Both the position numbers and the translations under genes were made by a program. The notes under the pieces are model-generated. The model ran no database searches and was not told the DNA's origin. It saw only the letters and a program-made list of their open reading frames with translations. Below, piece by piece: positions 23,989-54,542 of a stretch of 64,000 nt of DNA (positions within the stretch are counted from its first letter, which is position 1; every line of letters starts with the position of its first letter). Origin of the DNA: Paracoccus zeaxanthinifaciens ATCC 21588 (lineage in GTDB: Bacteria; Pseudomonadota; Alphaproteobacteria; Rhodobacterales; Rhodobacteraceae). The stretch is taken from assembly GCF_000420145.1 (NCBI RefSeq), contig NZ_ATUJ01000007.1, forward strand, positions 62,001 through 126,000, in the 5' to 3' direction.

Positions 23989-24665
23989 CGCATCCCAGCC
24001 CGAATCATGGCGACAGGCGCGGCCAGCGCCCGTCGCTGATCGTGCTTCACTTCACCAAGATGATCGACGCGGCCTCTGCCCGCGCAAGGTTGTGCGACCC
24101 CGCGGCCGAGGTCAGCGCCCATTGGCTGATCGACGAGGACGGCAGCATCGACGCGCTGGTCCCCGAGGATCGCCGCGCATGGCATGCGGGCGCGGGCAGC
24201 TGGCGCGGGCAGGACGACGTGAACAGCCGTTCCATCGGGATCGAGCTGGCCAATCCCGGCGATCGCCCCTTTGCCGCGCCGCAGATGGCCGCGCTGCGCG
24301 ACCTGCTGCGCGGCATCATGGAGCGCTGGCAGATCGGCCCTGAAGCGGTGATCGCGCATTCCGACCTTGCACCGGGGCGCAAGGACGATCCCGGCCCCCG
24401 CTTCGACTGGGAAGGTCTGGCCCGCGAAGGGCTGGCCGTGTTCACCCGCAGGACCGCCGCCGACGCGCCGCTTGCGCAATCGCTGACGGCCATCGGATAT
24501 CCCGAATGCGACGCCGATGCGCGGCTGGCGGCCTTCCGCCTGCGCCACCGCCCCTGGGCGCGCGGCCCCGAAACCGCTGCAGACCGCGCCGTCGCCGCCG
24601 CGCTTCGCGACTTGACGGCCCAGGGCCCCTCGTCCATATCCGCAGCTGCGCGGAGGGCCGGATGA
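23985..24665 (+). CDS. N-acetylmuramoyl-L-alanine amidase, AmpD-like
   Basis: 226 residues, Amidase_2 zinc fold. Likely ligands are His in LIVLHFTKMID, His in VIAHSDLAPGRKDDPG and Asp of KDDPG; SIGIELANPG is also typical. There is no signal peptide, as in cytosolic AmpD, which cleaves anhydromuropeptides. About 60 residues extend past the catalytic core. The last 18 bases, including the stop, overlap the 5' strand of RNase P RNA helix P1, and the rnpB promoter lies inside this gene. Confidence 0.85.
   Translation: MTHPSPNHGDRRGQRPSLIVLHFTKMIDAASARARLCDPAAEVSAHWLIDEDGSIDALVPEDRRAWHAGAGSWRGQDDVNSRSIGIELANPGDRPFAAPQMAALRDLLRGIMERWQIGPEAVIAHSDLAPGRKDDPGPRFDWEGLAREGLAVFTRRTAADAPLAQSLTAIGYPECDADARLAAFRLRHRPWARGPETAADRAVAAALRDLTAQGPSSISAAARRAG
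24612..24640 (+). promoter_or_regulatory. rnpB promoter inside the amidase gene (TTGACG-17-CATATC)
   Basis: -35 TTGACG at 24612-24617, 17-bp spacer, -10 CATATC at 24635-24640. A start 7-8 bases downstream would fall at the first base of helix P1 (24648). Confidence 0.6.
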
Positions 24666-25024
24666 CCGTGGCGGTGCAGACCGTCGAGGAAAGTCCGGAC
24701 TCCATGAGGTAACGGTGCCGGGTAACGCCCGGCGGGGGCAACCCCAGGGAAAGCGCCACAGAGAACAGACCGCCCGTGTCCGCACGGGTAAGGGTGAAAC
24801 GGTGGGGTAAGAGCCCACCGGGGGACTGGCAACAGGACCCGCATGGCAAGCCCCACCGGGAGCAATGCCGAATAGGGATCGCGCGCGGGGGCAACCCCGC
24901 AGGGCCACCTTGCCCCAGCAGATCCGGGTAGGCAGCTAGATCCGGCCGGCAACGGTCGGGGCAGATGAATGGTCATCCAGCCGCGCAAGCGGTGGACAGG
25001 ATCCGGCTTACAGGCCCTCCGCGC
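24648..25024 (+). ncRNA. rnpB: RNase P RNA, bacterial type A
   Basis: The catalytic RNA of RNase P. Conserved blocks are visible: GAGGAAAGTCCGGACTCC near 24692, ACAGAGAACAGACC near 24758, GGTAAGGGTGAAACGGTG, AGCAATGCCGAATAGGG near 24860, GCAGATGAATGGTC near 24960 and ACAGGATCCGGCTTACAGGCC-like end. Helix P1 is a perfect 12-bp pairing of 24648-24659 with 25013-25024, which sets the ends. The 5' end overlaps the amidase gene by 18 bases and the 3' end lies 8 bases from the converging next gene. Confidence 0.97.
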
Positions 25025-25032
25025 GCATCACA

Positions 25033-46290: not shown

Positions 46291-47721
46291 TCAATCTTCG
46301 CTCGAGCGGGAATAGACGTCCTCGTAGCGGATGATGTCATCCTCGCCCAGATAGCTGCCGGTCTGGACCTCGATCAGGACCATCGGCACCTTGCCCGGGT
46401 TCTCCATCCGGTGGACGGCACCCAGGGGGACATAGATGGACTGGTTCTCGGTCACGAGGGTGACCTGATCGTCCACCGTGACGCGGGCGGTGCCGTTCAC
46501 CACGATCCAGTGCTCGGACCGGTGGACATGGCTTTGAAGCGACAATGCGGCGCCCGGCTTGACAACGATGCGCTTGACCTGGAAGCGGTCGGCAAGGGCC
46601 AGCGTCTCGAACCAGCCCCAGGGGCGATGATCGCGCGGGAAGGATTCGGCCTGCTTGTGGCCCTTTTCCTTCAGCGCGGTGACGGCCTTGCGCACATCCT
46701 GCGCGCGCGACTTGTCGGCCACCAGAACCGCATCCGAGGTGGCGACGACCATCAGGTCCTTCAGCCCGATCCCCACGACCTGCAGATCGGAATCCTCGGA
46801 GCGCAGCAGCACATCGTCGCAATCGATCGCGGTCGAGTTCCGGCAGGCGACGTTGCCCCCTGCCTGCCCGTCCAGCTGTTCGCGCCAGACCGCGTCCCAA
46901 CCGCCCAGATCCGACCAGCGCCCCGAGAAGCGCACGACGCTGAGGTTGTCGGCCTTCTCCATCACGGCAAAGTCGATGCTGTCGTCGCGCGCGCTGTCCC
47001 AGCCCGCACGCGCAAGGCGCAGGAAGCCCAGATCGACATGCGATTCATCGATGGCGCGGGTGACCGGCTCGATGAATTCGGGGGCGTGGGCCTTGAAGGC
47101 CTCGATCATGACGCGCGCGCTGAACAGGAAGATGCCCGCGTTCCACAGGAAATTGCCCGCCTGCAGCATCTGCTCGGCGCGCGCGGCGTCCGGCTTCTCG
47201 ACGAAGCGGGTCAGCGGCTGCACCGCTTCGGGGCCGTTGCCGCCCAGTTCGAGATAGCCATAGCCGGTCTCGGGGCGATCGGGCGTGATGCCGAAGGTGA
47301 CGATCCGCCCCTGGCGCGCGGCGACGGCGCCCGTCTCGACCGCTTCGCGGAATGCGCCCGCATCGGGGATCACGTGGTCCGAGGGCGCGACCAGCAGCAG
47401 CCCCTCGGGGTCGGTCTGCGCCTGCAGCAGGGCGGCGGCAAGGATCGCGGGCGCGGTGTTGCGGCCCGAAGGCTCGATCACGATGCGCCCGGGTTCGATC
47501 CCGGCCTGTTCCAGCTGCTCGGCCACGATGAAGCGGAAATCGGAATTGGTCATCACGACCGGCGCGGCGAAGCCGTTCCCCGACAGGCGCAAGGCCGAGG
47601 CCTGGAACAGCGTCTCATCCCCGATCAGCTGGGCGAATTGCTTGGGAAAGCTCTTTCTGGAAACGGGCCAAAGCCGCGTGCCGGAACCTCCAGCCATCAG
47701 AACCGGGGTGATCGTACTCAT
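46291..47721 (-). CDS. manC: Mannose-1-phosphate guanylyltransferase / mannose-6-phosphate isomerase
   Basis: 476 residues, bifunctional type. N-terminal nucleotidyltransferase with LMAGGSGTRLWPVSRKSFPK and FVEKPDAARAEQML; C-terminal cupin isomerase with RPWGWFETL and QSHVHRSEHWIVVNG. It supplies GDP-mannose for polysaccharide or glycan synthesis. It has its own promoter and structured leader; no other sugar-nucleotide gene is adjacent, so it may serve several pathways. Confidence 0.94.
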   Translation of the reverse strand: MSTITPVLMAGGSGTRLWPVSRKSFPKQFAQLIGDETLFQASALRLSGNGFAAPVVMTNSDFRFIVAEQLEQAGIEPGRIVIEPSGRNTAPAILAAALLQAQTDPEGLLLVAPSDHVIPDAGAFREAVETGAVAARQGRIVTFGITPDRPETGYGYLELGGNGPEAVQPLTRFVEKPDAARAEQMLQAGNFLWNAGIFLFSARVMIEAFKAHAPEFIEPVTRAIDESHVDLGFLRLARAGWDSARDDSIDFAVMEKADNLSVVRFSGRWSDLGGWDAVWREQLDGQAGGNVACRNSTAIDCDDVLLRSEDSDLQVVGIGLKDLMVVATSDAVLVADKSRAQDVRKAVTALKEKGHKQAESFPRDHRPWGWFETLALADRFQVKRIVVKPGAALSLQSHVHRSEHWIVVNGTARVTVDDQVTLVTENQSIYVPLGAVHRMENPGKVPMVLIEVQTGSYLGEDDIIRYEDVYSRSSED

Positions 47722-47873: not shown

Positions 47874-50849
47874 TCAGTGTCCGCGGTCGCAGATCGGGCA
47901 ATGCGGCGCGCCGTCCGACCCGACCGAGGTCGCCTCGCCGCAGATGCTGCAGGCGTGGTGGCGCAGGCTTGCGCGGCCCTGCAGCACCATCAGCTCCTGC
48001 GGCAGACGCTTGCGCAGGTAACCGGCGCTGCTGATCTGCTTGAGCATGGTCAGCGATTTCGGCTCGGGGCGCTCGGGCGTGCGCCGCCCCTCGGCGCGGC
48101 CGCCGCCCAGATCGTCGAAGCGCGCCCCCTCGGGCTTCACATGCGCCAGGTCCGTCCGGTCGAGATAGCTGACCGCCAGTTCGCGGAAGACGTAATCCAG
48201 GACCGAGGTCGCCGTCTTGATGCTGTCGTTCCCCTCGACCGGGCCGGCAGGCTCGAAGCGGGTGAAGGTAAAGGCGTCGACGAATTCCTCCAGCGGGACG
48301 CCGTATTGCAGCGCGACCGACACGGCGATGGCGAAGTTGTTCATCATCGCCCGGAAGGCCGCGCCCTCCTTGTGCATGTCGATGAAGATCTCTCCGACCG
48401 AGCCGTCATCGTATTCGCCGGTCCGAAGATAGACCTTGTGCCCGCCGACGCTGGCCTTCTGGGTATATCCCTTGCGGCGCTGCGGCAGCTTGCGGCGATC
48501 GCTGCGGGCGGCCTCCTTGACGACGATCCGCTCGGCCATGCGTTCGGCCAGGGCGCCCGCGCGGACAGGTGCGGGGGCATCGGGCAGGATGTCGTCCTCG
48601 ACCTCGGCGACATGGGCGGCAAGGCGCGACCCCTCGCGCTGGATGCGGCAGTGCCAGAGGCCCAGATCATGCGCCAGCTCGAACAGGGACTGGATCTGGG
48701 CGATGCCGGTCGCATGCGGCACGACGGTCCGGCGCTGCACGTCGCCCGACAGCGCGTGCTGGACGGCGGCGGTCAGGCGGATCGACGCCTCGGGGTGGAC
48801 GCGGCGGGTGCTGCTGCGCCCGACGGCCTGCGCGCAGTCGAAGACCGCCAGGTCGGCAGGGTCCAGATCGGGGGCGCCCTCGACCGTCATCGCGCCGCAG
48901 ACATGGGCGTTCGCCGCCTGGATCTGGCGGGCCGAGAAGCCCAGATGCGCCAGCATGTCGAAGCCGGGATCGTCCAGCCGGTCCTGCGGGATGCCCAGGA
49001 TGTCGCGGCAGAATTCCTGCCCGAGCGTCCACTGGTTGAAGACGAAGCGGATGTCGAAAGCATCCGGCAGCGCGGCCTCGATCCGGTCGATCTGGTCATG
49101 GCCGAAGCCGTGGCCCGCAAGGGCCGCGTGGCCGATCTCGGGGCTGCCCAGCAGGGTGCCGTGCCCCGTCGCATGGGTCGCGATCCGCGCGATCGCATCG
49201 GTCGGATAGCCCAAGGCGCCCAGCCCTGCGGCAACCGCGGGCGCGATGACACGGCGATGCGCGCCATCCGCGTCGGGCACATGATGGACCAGCGCCTGAA
49301 GCGGCTCGATGCCGTCGGCCTCCCAGCCCAGAAGCAGCCGCAGATCGCCCGAGGGACGGACGGCGCAGACCTGTCCGTGACGCAGGCCCGATGCCTGGGC
49401 CAGGGCCAGCGCATTGCCGAAGATGGCCTGCGCCGGGCCGCGCTCATCGGCGCGATCCGACAGCATGCGCAACATCGCCCGCCGGTGGGTGCCGAAGGCG
49501 GTCCCCTCGGCCGTGCAGGCCGCGATGCGGGCCGAACTTTCCCACGCCGCACCCGCGATGACCGCGCACAGTTCGGTCGCAAGCTCCTGTGCCTCATCCG
49601 ATCCATAGGCAAGGCCCATCGACATCAGCACGGCCCCCAGCCCCACGGGGCCGATCGCAAGGTGATCGGCCTGCGGGTCCGCGGCGTGCTGCGCGATCGC
49701 GGTCAGGCGGGTGGCATGGGCCAGCCCCTGGTGGTCGAACTGGCCGCCCTGACAGAAGGCCGGCAGGTACAGATGCGCGGACAGATCGGCCCGCCCCGCA
49801 AAGGGGGGCATGTTGTCCGTGAATTCCAGCGCGGGATCGCCCGTCGCCCATGCGGCATCGCCGATGCGATCCCACAGGCCGGCATCGTCGCCGTCCTGCA
49901 TGGCGCGCAGGAAGCCGTCGCCCAACCGCAGGGTGCACTCGGTCTGCTGGCCGGTGACGCTGGCCCAGCCCTCGCCGTCCCAGTCGTCGTCGAAGACCGG
50001 CAGCTCGGTCGAGGCAAAGCCCTGGCGCGCATGATCCAGCACGCGCTGCACCTGCGTTTCGGGGATCATCGCGCGGCGGGCCTCGCGCAGGGCATGGCTC
50101 AGCGCGGGTTCAGTACCGGTGCGGGCAACCTCGGCCAGGGCGGCAAGGCGGTCGCGCTGCATCCGCGACCCGGCGATCAGCGCCGAGAGCTTGCGTTCCT
50201 CGTCCAGCTTCCAGTCAATGAAGCGGCGGGCCTCGGGGTGGGCCACGTCGCAGACCGCATGGATGCCCGGCTTGCGGATCGCGGCACCGCGCATCAGGGC
50301 GGCGCGCGCGCGGTCGGCCTCTTGCAGCGGGGCCATCAGGGGCGCGTCATCGGCAAAGCGCAGCGTAGTGTCGGTGTCAGGGCGCGCCGGTTCCTCGGCG
50401 CCATAGGCCCAGGCAAGGCCGAAACCGTCCCAGAGACCCGCCACCGGCGCGGCCATCCCCTGCGCCATCATGCGCGTCATGTCGTCCAGAAAGGCGCGGG
50501 CGCAGGATTCCGACGCCAAGGTTCCGGCCTTCCATGCGCGATGGGTCAGCGCGCCTGCGATGCGTTCGATCAGCTGGGGCAGACCGCCCTCATCGCTGAA
50601 CGACGCCCCCGGCGCGGGACGCGAGGGCCAGAGGAATTCGGGAACGCCATCCTCGGGGATGCGCTGCGTTTCGGACGGCACGACGCCGCGCGCCAGCATC
50701 GAGGCAAGGGCATCGACCTGGATCGCGGACCAGTGGGATGGGGCAAGCACGTCGCCCTTGTCGGACGGATGCGCGACCAGCGCGATATCGGCCCATGGCC
50801 CCGCGAGGTCGTTCGAGAAGCGACGTTCGATCTGCATGGTTTGCGCCAT
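47874..50849 (-). CDS. Degenerate class II (B12-type) ribonucleotide reductase homologue, NrdJ-like
   Basis: 991 residues against roughly 1200 for alphaproteobacterial NrdJ. N-terminus (MQIERRF, VPEFLWPS) and middle (FDIRFVFNQWTLGQEFCRDI, VCGAMTVEGAPDL) match NrdJ. The TSCPD domain at about 790-905 is very well kept (RRKGYTQKASVGGHKVYLRT, MMNNFAIAVSVALQYGVPLE). However, the block with the first redox Cys (HACFIQSV in canonical NrdJ) and GSGTGTNFS is missing near 150-190. The active-site NPCSE is not found; the aligned stretch reads FTDNMPPFAGRADL near 345. APTGTIG is replaced by RPSGDLRLL. The C-terminus ends in a CSIC/CPIC zinc-ribbon-like pair. The frame is intact, so it is retained but probably not a reductase. 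An alternative start is ATG 50837. Confidence 0.8.
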   Translation of the reverse strand: MAQTMQIERRFSNDLAGPWADIALVAHPSDKGDVLAPSHWSAIQVDALASMLARGVVPSETQRIPEDGVPEFLWPSRPAPGASFSDEGGLPQLIERIAGALTHRAWKAGTLASESCARAFLDDMTRMMAQGMAAPVAGLWDGFGLAWAYGAEEPARPDTDTTLRFADDAPLMAPLQEADRARAALMRGAAIRKPGIHAVCDVAHPEARRFIDWKLDEERKLSALIAGSRMQRDRLAALAEVARTGTEPALSHALREARRAMIPETQVQRVLDHARQGFASTELPVFDDDWDGEGWASVTGQQTECTLRLGDGFLRAMQDGDDAGLWDRIGDAAWATGDPALEFTDNMPPFAGRADLSAHLYLPAFCQGGQFDHQGLAHATRLTAIAQHAADPQADHLAIGPVGLGAVLMSMGLAYGSDEAQELATELCAVIAGAAWESSARIAACTAEGTAFGTHRRAMLRMLSDRADERGPAQAIFGNALALAQASGLRHGQVCAVRPSGDLRLLLGWEADGIEPLQALVHHVPDADGAHRRVIAPAVAAGLGALGYPTDAIARIATHATGHGTLLGSPEIGHAALAGHGFGHDQIDRIEAALPDAFDIRFVFNQWTLGQEFCRDILGIPQDRLDDPGFDMLAHLGFSARQIQAANAHVCGAMTVEGAPDLDPADLAVFDCAQAVGRSSTRRVHPEASIRLTAAVQHALSGDVQRRTVVPHATGIAQIQSLFELAHDLGLWHCRIQREGSRLAAHVAEVEDDILPDAPAPVRAGALAERMAERIVVKEAARSDRRKLPQRRKGYTQKASVGGHKVYLRTGEYDDGSVGEIFIDMHKEGAAFRAMMNNFAIAVSVALQYGVPLEEFVDAFTFTRFEPAGPVEGNDSIKTATSVLDYVFRELAVSYLDRTDLAHVKPEGARFDDLGGGRAEGRRTPERPEPKSLTMLKQISSAGYLRKRLPQELMVLQGRASLRHHACSICGEATSVGSDGAPHCPICDRGH

Positions 50850-51261
50850 CCTTCCTGCATCGCGCCCGCGCGACAGACCTGCCCACGCGCATGACGCGGG
50901 GATCGGAGGGCATGGCCATCCGTTTCGGTCCTATCGAATTCGCATGTGGCTGCGGCTCGAATCGCCACCACATCTTGTGCCGGTTGGGCTGTTTGACCCA
51001 AGGTGGCGCGCGCCTTGGGGCCTTTCAACCGCTTTATTTGGCCCGTGTCGGGCGTCCCGCCATTGACAGGGGCGAAGGCGGATTCGCCCACAGGACAAGG
51101 CGATCACGGACGGGAAAACAGGGGGCAAGCGGCGATTTCCGCGCGAAACCAAGGGCGTGCCGAAACCCGCCCTCAGCTTATCCACAGGGTTGCGCGAAAA
51201 CCGCCCACAGCTTGCTCACAGCCGATGCAAAAACGTCACAATCGGCAGGTTTTTGCAGGGC
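50850..51261. promoter_or_regulatory. 412-bp upstream region of the NrdJ-like gene
   Basis: No gene. It contains the DnaA-box-like cluster at 51178-51240, an extra TCGCCCACA at 51084, a hairpin CCCAAGG/CCTTGGG at 50997-51003/51013-51019, and ACATCTTGT near 50970 that weakly resembles an NrdR-type site. No B12 riboswitch box was seen. Confidence 0.5.
51178..51240. promoter_or_regulatory. Cluster of DnaA-box-like sites
   Basis: One perfect TTATCCACA at 51178-51186, followed on the same strand by CCGCCCACA (51201), TTGCTCACA (51212) and AACGTCACA (51232). Spacings of 23, 11 and 20 bases are close to whole helical turns. Only the first is a consensus box. DnaA control of nrd promoters is known in other bacteria. 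Confidence 0.5.
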
Positions 51262-51810
51262 TCAGCCAGCAGCCTCGGGGAAGACAGCCCCGGCATCGGT
51301 GACGATCAGGTCCAGCGGCTGATCGAAGGGCTCGACGGGAATCGCCTGAACGCGCTGACAGGCGAATGCCAGGCCCATCGCCAGCACAGGCCCCTGCGCG
51401 CGCAGCCGTTCCAGGGTGCGGTCGTAGAAGCCGCCGCCATAGCCCAGCCGGTGCCCCTGCCCGTCGAACCCCGCCAGCGGGACGATCACCACGTCGGGGC
51501 GCATCTCGGGCGCATCCGGCCCGGGATGAGAGACGCCGAAATCGCCGCGCACCAGCGGTGCATCGGGCTGCCATTCGCGAAAGACCAGCGGCCGGTCGCG
51601 GCCCGTGACCACCGGCAGGACCAGCCCGCCCTGATGGTCCTGCAGCGCGGGCCGGGGGTCGGCCTCGTCGCGGATGGGCCAATAGGCCGCGACGACGCCG
51701 CGCCGGAAGGGCAGCAGCGCATTCGCAAAGTGCCGCGTCAGCGCATCCGCGTCGCCGCCTGCCGCGCGTGCCGCCAGCGCCTGGGCACGCAGCGTGGCCT
51801 TCGCGGTCAC
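51262..51810 (-). CDS. 5-formyltetrahydrofolate cyclo-ligase
   Basis: 182 residues. Nucleotide/phosphate motif VPLAGFDGQGHRLGYGGGFY, followed by DRTLERLRAQGPVLAMGLAF, and N-terminal basic TAKATLRAQALAARAAG. It converts 5-formyl-THF to 5,10-methenyl-THF. The start is a GTG at 51810 that overlaps the mgtE stop (GTGA), so it is coupled to mgtE. Confidence 0.88.
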   Translation of the reverse strand: MTAKATLRAQALAARAAGGDADALTRHFANALLPFRRGVVAAYWPIRDEADPRPALQDHQGGLVLPVVTGRDRPLVFREWQPDAPLVRGDFGVSHPGPDAPEMRPDVVIVPLAGFDGQGHRLGYGGGFYDRTLERLRAQGPVLAMGLAFACQRVQAIPVEPFDQPLDLIVTDAGAVFPEAAG

Positions 51811-53198
51811 AGCAGCACCGCCGATGCCAGCCCGAGGAAGGCGAAGAAGCCCACCACGTCCGTCACCGTGGTCACGAAGGTCCCCGAGGCAAGCGCGGGG
51901 TCGGCGCCCACCTTCTCCAACCCCAGGGGCACGAGGATGCCCGCAAGCGCCGCGATGGCCAGGTTCACGATCATCGCGACGGCGATCACCGCGGCCAGCG
52001 ACACGCCGTCGAACCAGATGAAGGCCACGATCCCCATGACGACCGCGAAGGCCAGGCCGTTCAGAAGGCCCACGATCGCTTCTCGTCTGACGACGCGCCA
52101 GACATTGCTTCCGCTCAGGCTCTTGGTGGCAAGGGCGCGCACGGCGACGGTCAGCGTCTGCGTGCCCGCGTTCCCGCCCATCGAGGCGACGATGGGCATC
52201 AGCACGGCCAGGGCCACGACCTGCTGGATCGTCGCCTCGAAGACGGCGATGACCAGCGATGCGGCAATGGCGGTCGCCAGGTTCACGATCAGCCAGGGCA
52301 GGCGCTGGCGCAGCGTCTCGGCCACGCTGTCGGTGATGGCCGATTCCTCGCCCACGCCCGCAAGGCGCAGGATGTCTTCCTCGTGTTCCTCGTCCAGGAC
52401 GGTCATGGCGTCGTCGATGGTGATGACGCCGACCAGCCGCTCCGATGCATCGACCACCGGGGCCGAGATCAGGTGGTACTGGTTGAAGGCATAGGCGACA
52501 TCGCCCTCTTCGGCATAGGCGCTGATGGTGCGGAAGCTGTCCTCGGCCAAGTCGCGCAGCGGCACGTCGCGCCGCGTCGCCAGCAGGCGCCCAAGCGTGA
52601 CATAGCCGATGGGATGGCGGCGCGGATCGACCAGGATGATGTGATAGAACTGCTCGGGCAGCCATTCCTCGGCGCGCAGGAAGTCGATCGTCTCGCCCAC
52701 GGTCCAGTGTTCGGGCGCGGTGACGACCTCGGACTGCATGAGGCGGCCCGCCGAGTATTCGGGATAGGCCAGCGACTGCTGGACGGCGGCGCGATCGCTT
52801 TCGTCCAGCGCCGCCAGGATCTCGGCGCGGTCGGGTTCGTCCAGATCCTCGATCAGGTCGACGACATCGTCGCTGTCCATCTCCCGGACGGCCTCGGCAA
52901 GGACGTGCCGGGGCAGCATCTCGACGAATTCCTCGCGGATGGATTCGTCGATCTCGGACAGGATCTCGCCGTCGATCTCACCGCCATAGAGGTCGATGAA
53001 ATCCTTGCGCCCGCTCGGGGTCAGCCGCTCGATCAGGTCGGCGATGTCGGCGGCGTGCATCGGCTCCAGCGCCGCGTTCAGCATGTGGGCGTCGCCCGCC
53101 TCCAGCGCCTCGTCGACGCGGGCCAGCCATTCGGGGCCCGGGCCGAAATCGCCTTCGTCGCGGTCGTCCTGACGGTCCAGGATCTGTTCTTCGGCCAT
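51807..53198 (-). CDS. mgtE: Magnesium transporter MgtE
   Basis: 463 residues. Acidic N domain (MHAADIADLIERLTPSGRKD), two CBS domains (YPEYSAGRLMQSEVVTAPEH; ISAPVVDASERLVGVITIDD), then five membrane helices with MGGNAGTQTLTVAVRALA and the pore Asp in TTVTDVVGFFAFLGLA. A Mg-gated channel of the inner membrane, full length. Confidence 0.95.
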   Translation of the reverse strand: MAEEQILDRQDDRDEGDFGPGPEWLARVDEALEAGDAHMLNAALEPMHAADIADLIERLTPSGRKDFIDLYGGEIDGEILSEIDESIREEFVEMLPRHVLAEAVREMDSDDVVDLIEDLDEPDRAEILAALDESDRAAVQQSLAYPEYSAGRLMQSEVVTAPEHWTVGETIDFLRAEEWLPEQFYHIILVDPRRHPIGYVTLGRLLATRRDVPLRDLAEDSFRTISAYAEEGDVAYAFNQYHLISAPVVDASERLVGVITIDDAMTVLDEEHEEDILRLAGVGEESAITDSVAETLRQRLPWLIVNLATAIAASLVIAVFEATIQQVVALAVLMPIVASMGGNAGTQTLTVAVRALATKSLSGSNVWRVVRREAIVGLLNGLAFAVVMGIVAFIWFDGVSLAAVIAVAMIVNLAIAALAGILVPLGLEKVGADPALASGTFVTTVTDVVGFFAFLGLASAVLL

Positions 53199-54182: not shown

Positions 54183-54542
54183 TCACGCTGCGTCCGACAG
54201 CACCCTTGCCAGTTCGAAGATCTGGCGGCGCTGCGCGGCCGGCATGGTGTAATAGGCGCGCACAAGCTGCAGCGCCTCTTTGTCGGCGAAGATATCGCCT
54301 TCGACGATATCCGGGATCTCGCCCTCCATCAGCCCTTCGAAGAAGAAGCTGACCGGGACATCGACCGCCTGGGCGATATCCCACAGACGCGAAGCCGAGA
54401 CGCGGTTCATCCCCGTCTCGTACTTCTGGATCTGCTGAAACTTGATCCCGACCTTATCGGCAAGCTGCTGCTGCGTCATACCGATCATCCAGCGGCGATG
54501 GCGAATACGTTTACCAACATGAACATCTACACTGTGCTTCAT
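54183..54542 (-). CDS. XRE-family helix-turn-helix regulator
   Basis: 119 residues. HTH_3 at 8-65 (GKRIRHRRWMIGMTQQQLAD, KVGIKFQQIQKYETGMNRVS), followed by DVPVSFFFEGLMEG and an acidic C-terminal half ending ELARVLSDAA. This compact regulator is widespread in alphaproteobacteria; targets are unknown. Divergent from the quinone oxidoreductase gene with 186 bp between. Confidence 0.88.
   Translation of the reverse strand: MKHSVDVHVGKRIRHRRWMIGMTQQQLADKVGIKFQQIQKYETGMNRVSASRLWDIAQAVDVPVSFFFEGLMEGEIPDIVEGDIFADKEALQLVRAYYTMPAAQRRQIFELARVLSDAA

Follow-up and report, generated by a model that had tools for sequence, protein, structure and literature searches.

The window analysed here, 64,000 nucleotides of the genome of Paracoccus zeaxanthinifaciens ATCC 21588 (G000; 3.05 Mb in 35 contigs, 99.99% complete), contains a gene that resembles a long class II ribonucleotide reductase (RNR), NrdJ, without its catalytic motifs, which raises the question of whether such a gene is a relic in decay or a protein that is kept for another job. 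An earlier note had described an uninterrupted frame of 991 codons at 47874..50849 with retained NrdJ architecture. Both points were borne out, and we add that the frame lies on the minus strand, as do all features given below, running from an ATG at 50849 to a stop at 47874, which is included in the coordinates. Pfam recognised the N-terminal domain (Ribonuc_red_2_N), part of the barrel domain (profile positions 283-444 of 523) and TSCPD, the last with 41.8 bits against PF12637, above the cut-off of 22.8. The model for long NrdJ, NF005736, scored 765.7 bits, below its cut-off of 1737. The protein has 991 residues, compared with 1186-1236 in the intact NrdJ proteins examined, and a search against its own genome returned only itself at E <= 0.001. 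The openness of the frame is weak evidence when taken alone, because the antisense frame over the same gene is likewise open, for 1053 codons.

Alignment with intact NrdJ proteins showed that every active-site motif reported missing in the earlier note is indeed absent. The strand HACFIQSV, which carries the first redox cysteine, is gone through a 23-residue and a 44-residue deletion relative to the intact protein of G016 (site at residues 155-169, 50343..50387). The thiyl-radical loop NPCSE was removed by a 20-residue deletion relative to the same protein (site at residues 348-357, 49779..49808), and there is no cysteine between residues 305 and 366. A phmmer comparison with PDB 7b9q also left the NPCSE stretch without partner residues, so this loss does not depend on one aligner. 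ACNLASMNL aligns to ADLSAHLYL (49764..49790), with loss of the second redox cysteine, and the APTGTIG phosphate loop aligns to RPSGDLR (49338..49358). The same deletions are found in a second species, G119 (identity 64-66%), and are therefore not a sequencing artefact. A further loss had been missed. Class II enzymes of this type have six cysteines in the C-terminal tail, of which PMC5704485 assigns 1, 2, 4 and 5 to zinc, from a homology model that metal measurements back only partly, and 3 and 6 to electron delivery. By homology to the enzyme of that study, the window gene ends in a zinc-ribbon remnant (47889..47951) that keeps the four predicted zinc cysteines (C967, C970, C984 and C987) and has lost the redox pair. 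Among 184 alignment rows, one of them a repeated reference, NPCSE is kept in 176, the eight without it being six genes that we call dead and two fragmented genes; the APTGTIG loop is kept in 177 and all six tail cysteines are present in 177. Judged by its motifs, the window protein is almost certainly catalytically dead.

The six dead genes came from a search of 125 Paracoccus genomes for long NrdJ. A match was obtained in 112 genomes, nine of them weak, and none in 13; long NrdJ was thus not seen in 22 genomes (the 13 and the nine), five of which are less than 90% complete. The 103 loci that were read comprise 94 intact single frames, three fragmented genes of intact type (G124, G031 and G018) and the dead genes of G065, G070, G107, G101, G119 and G000. 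At the NPCSE site G065 has NPSGE, G070 STDGA, G107 SAAGE and G101 APAGD, while in G119 and G000 the loop is deleted altogether. Sizes are graded, from the near full-length protein of G065 down to the 991 residues of the window protein. Tail cysteines 3 and 6 are lost and 1, 2, 4 and 5 kept in G119, G107 and G070, as in the window; G065 has lost cysteines 3, 6 and also 1, and G101 has lost TSCPD and has no tail. Any job of the dead protein is non-essential in the genus, because G101 lacks TSCPD and 22 of the 125 genomes lack the gene. NPCSE was also kept in all of 80 loci from named genomes, the 80 strongest among at least 596 matches; some of these loci repeat the same Paracoccus genomes and others belong to other genera. 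The active-site segment of an intact NrdJ was also run against 394 Rhodobacteraceae genomes, nearly every one of which stands for a different genus. Apart from G000, 28 genomes gave no match or one weaker than 1e-60, and a TSCPD query of these found the domain in five: a prophage fusion in G509, pieces at contig ends in G303, G356 and G396, and a match in G359. Among the matches listed for these 394 genomes there was no clear second dead NrdJ outside Paracoccus, in a screen that is blind to mild cases, since a protein like that of G065, in which this segment is almost complete, would score as intact.

The position of the gene indicates where it came from. Its upstream neighbours are MgtE (51810..53198) and genes for 5-FCL, IMPase and an HTH protein; downstream lies a ManC-type mannose-1-phosphate guanylyltransferase (46291..47721). 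Across 183 nrdJ loci, MgtE is a neighbour in 96, IMPase in 95, the HTH gene in 92 and ManC in 15, and the MgtE/IMPase/HTH neighbourhood is missing in some Paracoccus and in the other genera looked at. All six dead genes adjoin MgtE, IMPase and HTH upstream and five also ManC downstream, so that the dead genes occupy the old nrdJ locus. The window gene is best explained, from gene order and homology, as a vertical orthologue of Paracoccus nrdJ that would have lost ribonucleotide reduction. A 15-bp box, CACAAGATNTNGTGG, stands 130 nucleotides before the ATG without mismatch (50965..50979). With up to two mismatches and within 450 bases, it precedes 58 of the 77 Paracoccus nrdJ genes that are not dead and none of 77 shuffled sequences, counts to be read with the facts that it was first spotted by eye, the consensus being fitted to some of the sequences later counted, and that the shuffles preserve base composition only. 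By the same limits it was not found before the other five dead genes. We take the box to resemble an NrdR box; the consensus of the E. coli-type NrdR box had no occurrence in the window at up to three mismatches. No riboswitch was found at the dead gene at Rfam thresholds.

Whether catalysis was lost once or several times was approached with trees. A tree of the MgtE, IMPase and HTH genes (81 of the 103 Paracoccus loci, those with all three) and an rpoB DNA tree of 30 genomes both call for three changes to the dead state (5-95% bootstrap range for rpoB, 3-3), in the lineages (G000, G119), (G107, G070, G065) and G101. The two species trees differ in some of the relatives that they place next to these lineages: the flanking genes make G016 the sister of G101, rpoB makes G097/G121 its sister, and the G107 group also changes place. 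By rpoB, the six dead species lie inside one group of 14 species (92/96) together with eight intact species. The NrdJ gene tree joins the six dead proteins (100*), although their branches are long and the tool issued a warning; when the other dead rows were removed the groups shifted place, and several branch lengths stood at 10. On the TSCPD DNA tree the five dead rows take two changes, and neither a single clade (p-AU 0.55) nor a grouping of G000, G119 and G068 (p-AU 0.45) was rejected. G119 and G107 share 33 of 113 derived residues where 18.3 are expected (sd 3.9), under a null that ignores site-specific preferences, and the motif QKASVGG is in all five TSCPD-bearing dead proteins and none of 174 intact ones. 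The shared derived residues, QKASVGG among them, would agree with a single loss and later transfer, and the trees may accommodate either one loss with lateral spread or three losses.

Selection after the loss was assessed with a pairwise codon model (GY94, custom script), 2dlnL being tested against a ratio of 1. The divergence between G000 and G119 postdates the catalytic loss, because the deletions are common to both; in the G107 group the loss presumably came before the split, judging from the common lack of the cysteine. Whole-gene dN/dS was 0.160 for G000-G119 (2dlnL 310), 0.118 for G107-G070 (486) and 0.126 for G107-G065 (495). Over TSCPD it fell to 0.019 (2dlnL 94), 0.006 (89) and 0.012 (115), respectively, which upholds the earlier suggestion of selection on the TSCPD half: selection is purifying, and strongest there. 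Regional dS reached 25-88 in the tail (three dead pairs), the linker (G107-G065) and the second barrel part (barrel2; G000-G119), and these ratios were discarded. Five intact pairs gave whole-gene values of 0.022-0.067, one of them, G018-G074, over 834 codons only because G018 is fragmented. The whole-protein ratios of dead pairs are about 2 to 7 times those of intact pairs, an observation that counts against reading the protein as a pseudoenzyme.

Invariant positions tell of the same unevenness along the protein. Over 174 intact proteins, with some genomes counted twice, 544 positions are invariant. Of the 82 in TSCPD, G000 keeps 80, G119, G107 and G070 all 82, G065 80 and G101 five; of the 419 in the catalytic part, G000 keeps 170, G119 195, G107 304, G070 284, G065 341 and G101 224. 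The retained module of the window protein comprises TSCPD and the helix that follows it (residues 791-958, 47976..48479; 80 of 82 TSCPD invariants). We found neither a stop or frameshift nor a dN/dS near 1 in the window gene, as a pseudogene would have; what we found is loss of the catalytic residues, later purifying selection and a real enzyme elsewhere in the cell, as in a pseudoenzyme. The dead NrdJ is thus very probably a selected pseudoenzyme and not a decaying pseudogene, and the part under selection is likely to be the retained C-terminal module.

The real enzymes of the window's genome, a second RNR having been proposed as a check, are the class Ib pair NrdE and NrdF together with a short NrdJ of class II, all above their NCBIfam cut-offs (TIGR04170, TIGR04171 and TIGR02504). 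None of the six dead species lacks the short NrdJ, which nearly all other Paracoccus among the 125 genomes also have; the class I small subunit (PF00268) occurs in 77 of the 125, including G000, G119 and G101 and excluding G107, G070 and G065. The short NrdJ, with the class I enzyme in three species, would have supplied dNTPs and so made catalysis by the long NrdJ dispensable, and the C-terminal module (TSCPD and zinc ribbon) would have kept a job. The window protein is like long Rhodobacteraceae NrdJ (NF005736/PRK07562; PDB 7b9p, 7b9q) in locus, N-terminal domain, barrel remnants, TSCPD and zinc-ribbon cysteines, and unlike it in lacking NPCSE, the active-site redox cysteines, APTGTIG and the C-terminal redox pair.

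What is retained corresponds to NrdJb of P. aeruginosa and to the cysteine-rich C-terminal domain of S. nassauensis NrdJd, which PMC5704485 equates with each other; from its position, TSCPD would belong to this C-terminal unit of the related enzymes. According to PMC4520616, the P. aeruginosa counterpart is a separate subunit that is needed for class II-dependent growth and has its docking site close to the edge of the cofactor cleft, and coenzyme binding resides in the part equivalent to NrdJa. That part is the eroded one here, so by analogy the B12 sensor once suggested for the window protein is not supported. For S. nassauensis, PMC5704485 describes a C-terminal domain that is needed for the higher oligomers stimulated by dATP and dGTP and that acts across subunits in oligomers; there are also hints of an additional nucleotide site, so that the unit may have a purine-dNTP site of its own. 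NrdJb is an electron shuttle, whereas the window unit has no redox pair and is still attached to a dead body. Docking or oligomerisation remains as a role, because the electron-shuttle cysteines are gone, and by analogy we put it forward tentatively as the mechanism: the dead NrdJ would be a non-catalytic docking or assembly protein, its eroded body a putative scaffold and its TSCPD binding a partner, either another RNR or some other protein. To name any particular partner would be a poor guess. The account as a whole, a NrdJ orthologue that lost catalysis and was kept as a pseudoenzyme for its tail in docking or assembly, is one that we hold with moderate confidence.

A narrower reading, in which the dead NrdJ acts directly on a real RNR, either oligomerising with the short class II NrdJ or inhibiting it, seems improbable. 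It draws on the short NrdJ being present in every dead species, on the action across subunits just described and on the upstream box of intact nrdJ retained in the window. The presence of the short NrdJ does not, however, single out dead species, since nearly all intact species have it; it sits on a different contig and has its own C-terminal region and cysteine-rich tail, and the redox pair for electron delivery across subunits has been lost from the dead protein.

Less probable still is a slowly dying pseudogene, in which catalysis became redundant, the frame happens not yet to be broken and the conservation of TSCPD is residual. Erosion is graded over the six species, TSCPD is lost in G101 and the gene is missing in 22 of 125 genomes, five of the six have lost the upstream box, and high GC keeps frames open, as the antisense frame illustrates. 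Against this stand whole-protein dN/dS values of 0.12-0.16, far from neutrality by the likelihoods given above at a dS of 1.2-1.7; the contrast between 80-82 of 82 TSCPD invariants in five of the six and 41-81% of those in the catalytic part; and the frames of G000 and G119, which stay open through every indel.

A neofunctionalised enzyme, whose barrel remnant performs other chemistry, is very improbable. All six dead proteins do have 100 catalytic-part invariants in common, that of G065 is near full length with serine for the thiyl cysteine plus other losses, and the part designated 'mid' is under selection (0.088-0.149). In G000 and G119, however, the finger loop and both redox-cysteine strands are deleted or replaced, the electron shuttle is gone in all five tail-bearing dead proteins, and an unsystematic look turned up no new polar or metal motif common to the dead proteins.

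The age of the module was judged from synonymous divergence. TSCPD dS is 1.04 between G000 and G119, compared with 0.41-1.07 in four neighbouring genes and 1.49 in the whole gene, and 0.66 between G107 and G070, compared with 0.20-0.74 in neighbouring genes; since it matches the surroundings, the module is as old as its neighbours and not a recent import, and recent gene conversion of TSCPD is unlikely. A repeated refreshing of the dead gene's TSCPD by recombination with intact nrdJ of other Paracoccus is hardly credible. In its favour, third-position identity of the G000 TSCPD to intact G073 (0.749) is slightly higher than to its sister G119 (0.731), as is that of the G119 TSCPD (0.754), TSCPD dS is below that of the whole gene and derived residues common to the lineages exceed independent draws. 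Against it, the dS of TSCPD falls within or close to the neighbouring-gene values, the TSCPD DNA tree unites G000 with G119 (100/99), QKASVGG is confined to dead proteins, none of 28 intact species compared has a TSCPD tract near-identical at synonymous sites, and recombination would have to spare an otherwise unselected product.

As a probable selected pseudoenzyme the gene offers a case in which catalysis was removed naturally and the tail kept; related species carry both near full-length and strongly shortened forms, and the role of TSCPD without catalysis becomes directly testable. Two of the three dead lineages keep the module almost unchanged, and evolution would therefore have separated both functions. 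It is possible, if rather doubtful, that the TSCPD and zinc-ribbon tail of class II RNRs is an autonomous module with a job independent of ribonucleotide reduction, such as a hub for assembly or regulation that responds to purine dNTPs. The window gene would resemble those herpesvirus R1 homologues that lost RNR activity and acquired roles in host interaction, as an RNR large subunit given another job, but these cases are viral; in the open-access literature searched we found no bacterial case, nothing on dead bacterial RNRs and nothing on the function of TSCPD, and to our knowledge the domain has no known function on this or other class II RNRs.

Structure prediction was informative for the module. 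A whole-protein AF2 model from 45 rows (the window and 44 loci) had a mean pLDDT of 54 and was uninformative on folding of the body. Folded apart from the body, on an alignment of viral-contig and bacterial relatives, the module reached pLDDT 90-97 over most of TSCPD (construct mean 76). Foldseek gave no significant PDB match for the modelled module (best E 0.3). With VIA-align, IscU, SufU, CsdE and lipoyltransferase/LplA domains appeared among unrelated proteins; their Z values of 3.2-5.7 do not reach 8, from which the tool treats a match as meaningful. These domains we take to be one fold group (SufE/NifU-like), and a SufE/NifU-like fold for TSCPD is no more than a lead.

Among the 174 intact Paracoccus and Rhodobacteraceae NrdJ proteins, 82 of the 111 positions in the TSCPD part (equivalent by homology to residues 791-901 of the dead protein in the window) are invariant, as are 30 of the 38 active-site positions, while the first barrel part has only 92 of 203. 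Conservation of the TSCPD part in intact NrdJ is thus similar to that of the active site, and far exceeds that of the first barrel part. The dead NrdJ of Paracoccus genome G101 (locus L124, 8009-10753, minus strand) is cut off ahead of TSCPD and ends in an unrelated tail; a search for the domain in the rest of this 17-kb locus gave no convincing match (best E 0.88).

No class I small subunit was found in three other Paracoccus genomes with a dead long NrdJ (G107, G070 and G065). Among the class I and class II enzymes covered by the search, the short B12-dependent reductase is therefore the one on which these genomes seem to rely.

In G509, from another Rhodobacteraceae genus, phage tail-fibre (protein J-like) sequence stands in place of the 5' half of nrdJ. 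The fusion is a single open frame of 1092 codons (L246, 7249-10524, minus strand), and its nrdJ 3' half retains APTGTIG and the six tail Cys.

The window also contains an HTH_3 gene (54186-54542), which was compared with its orthologue in locus L123 of the sister genome, G119. The two proteins are identical despite a dS of 0.41, as are those of G107 and G070 (dS 0.20), which points to very strong constraint. A class A RNase P RNA lies at 24650-25026 of the window.
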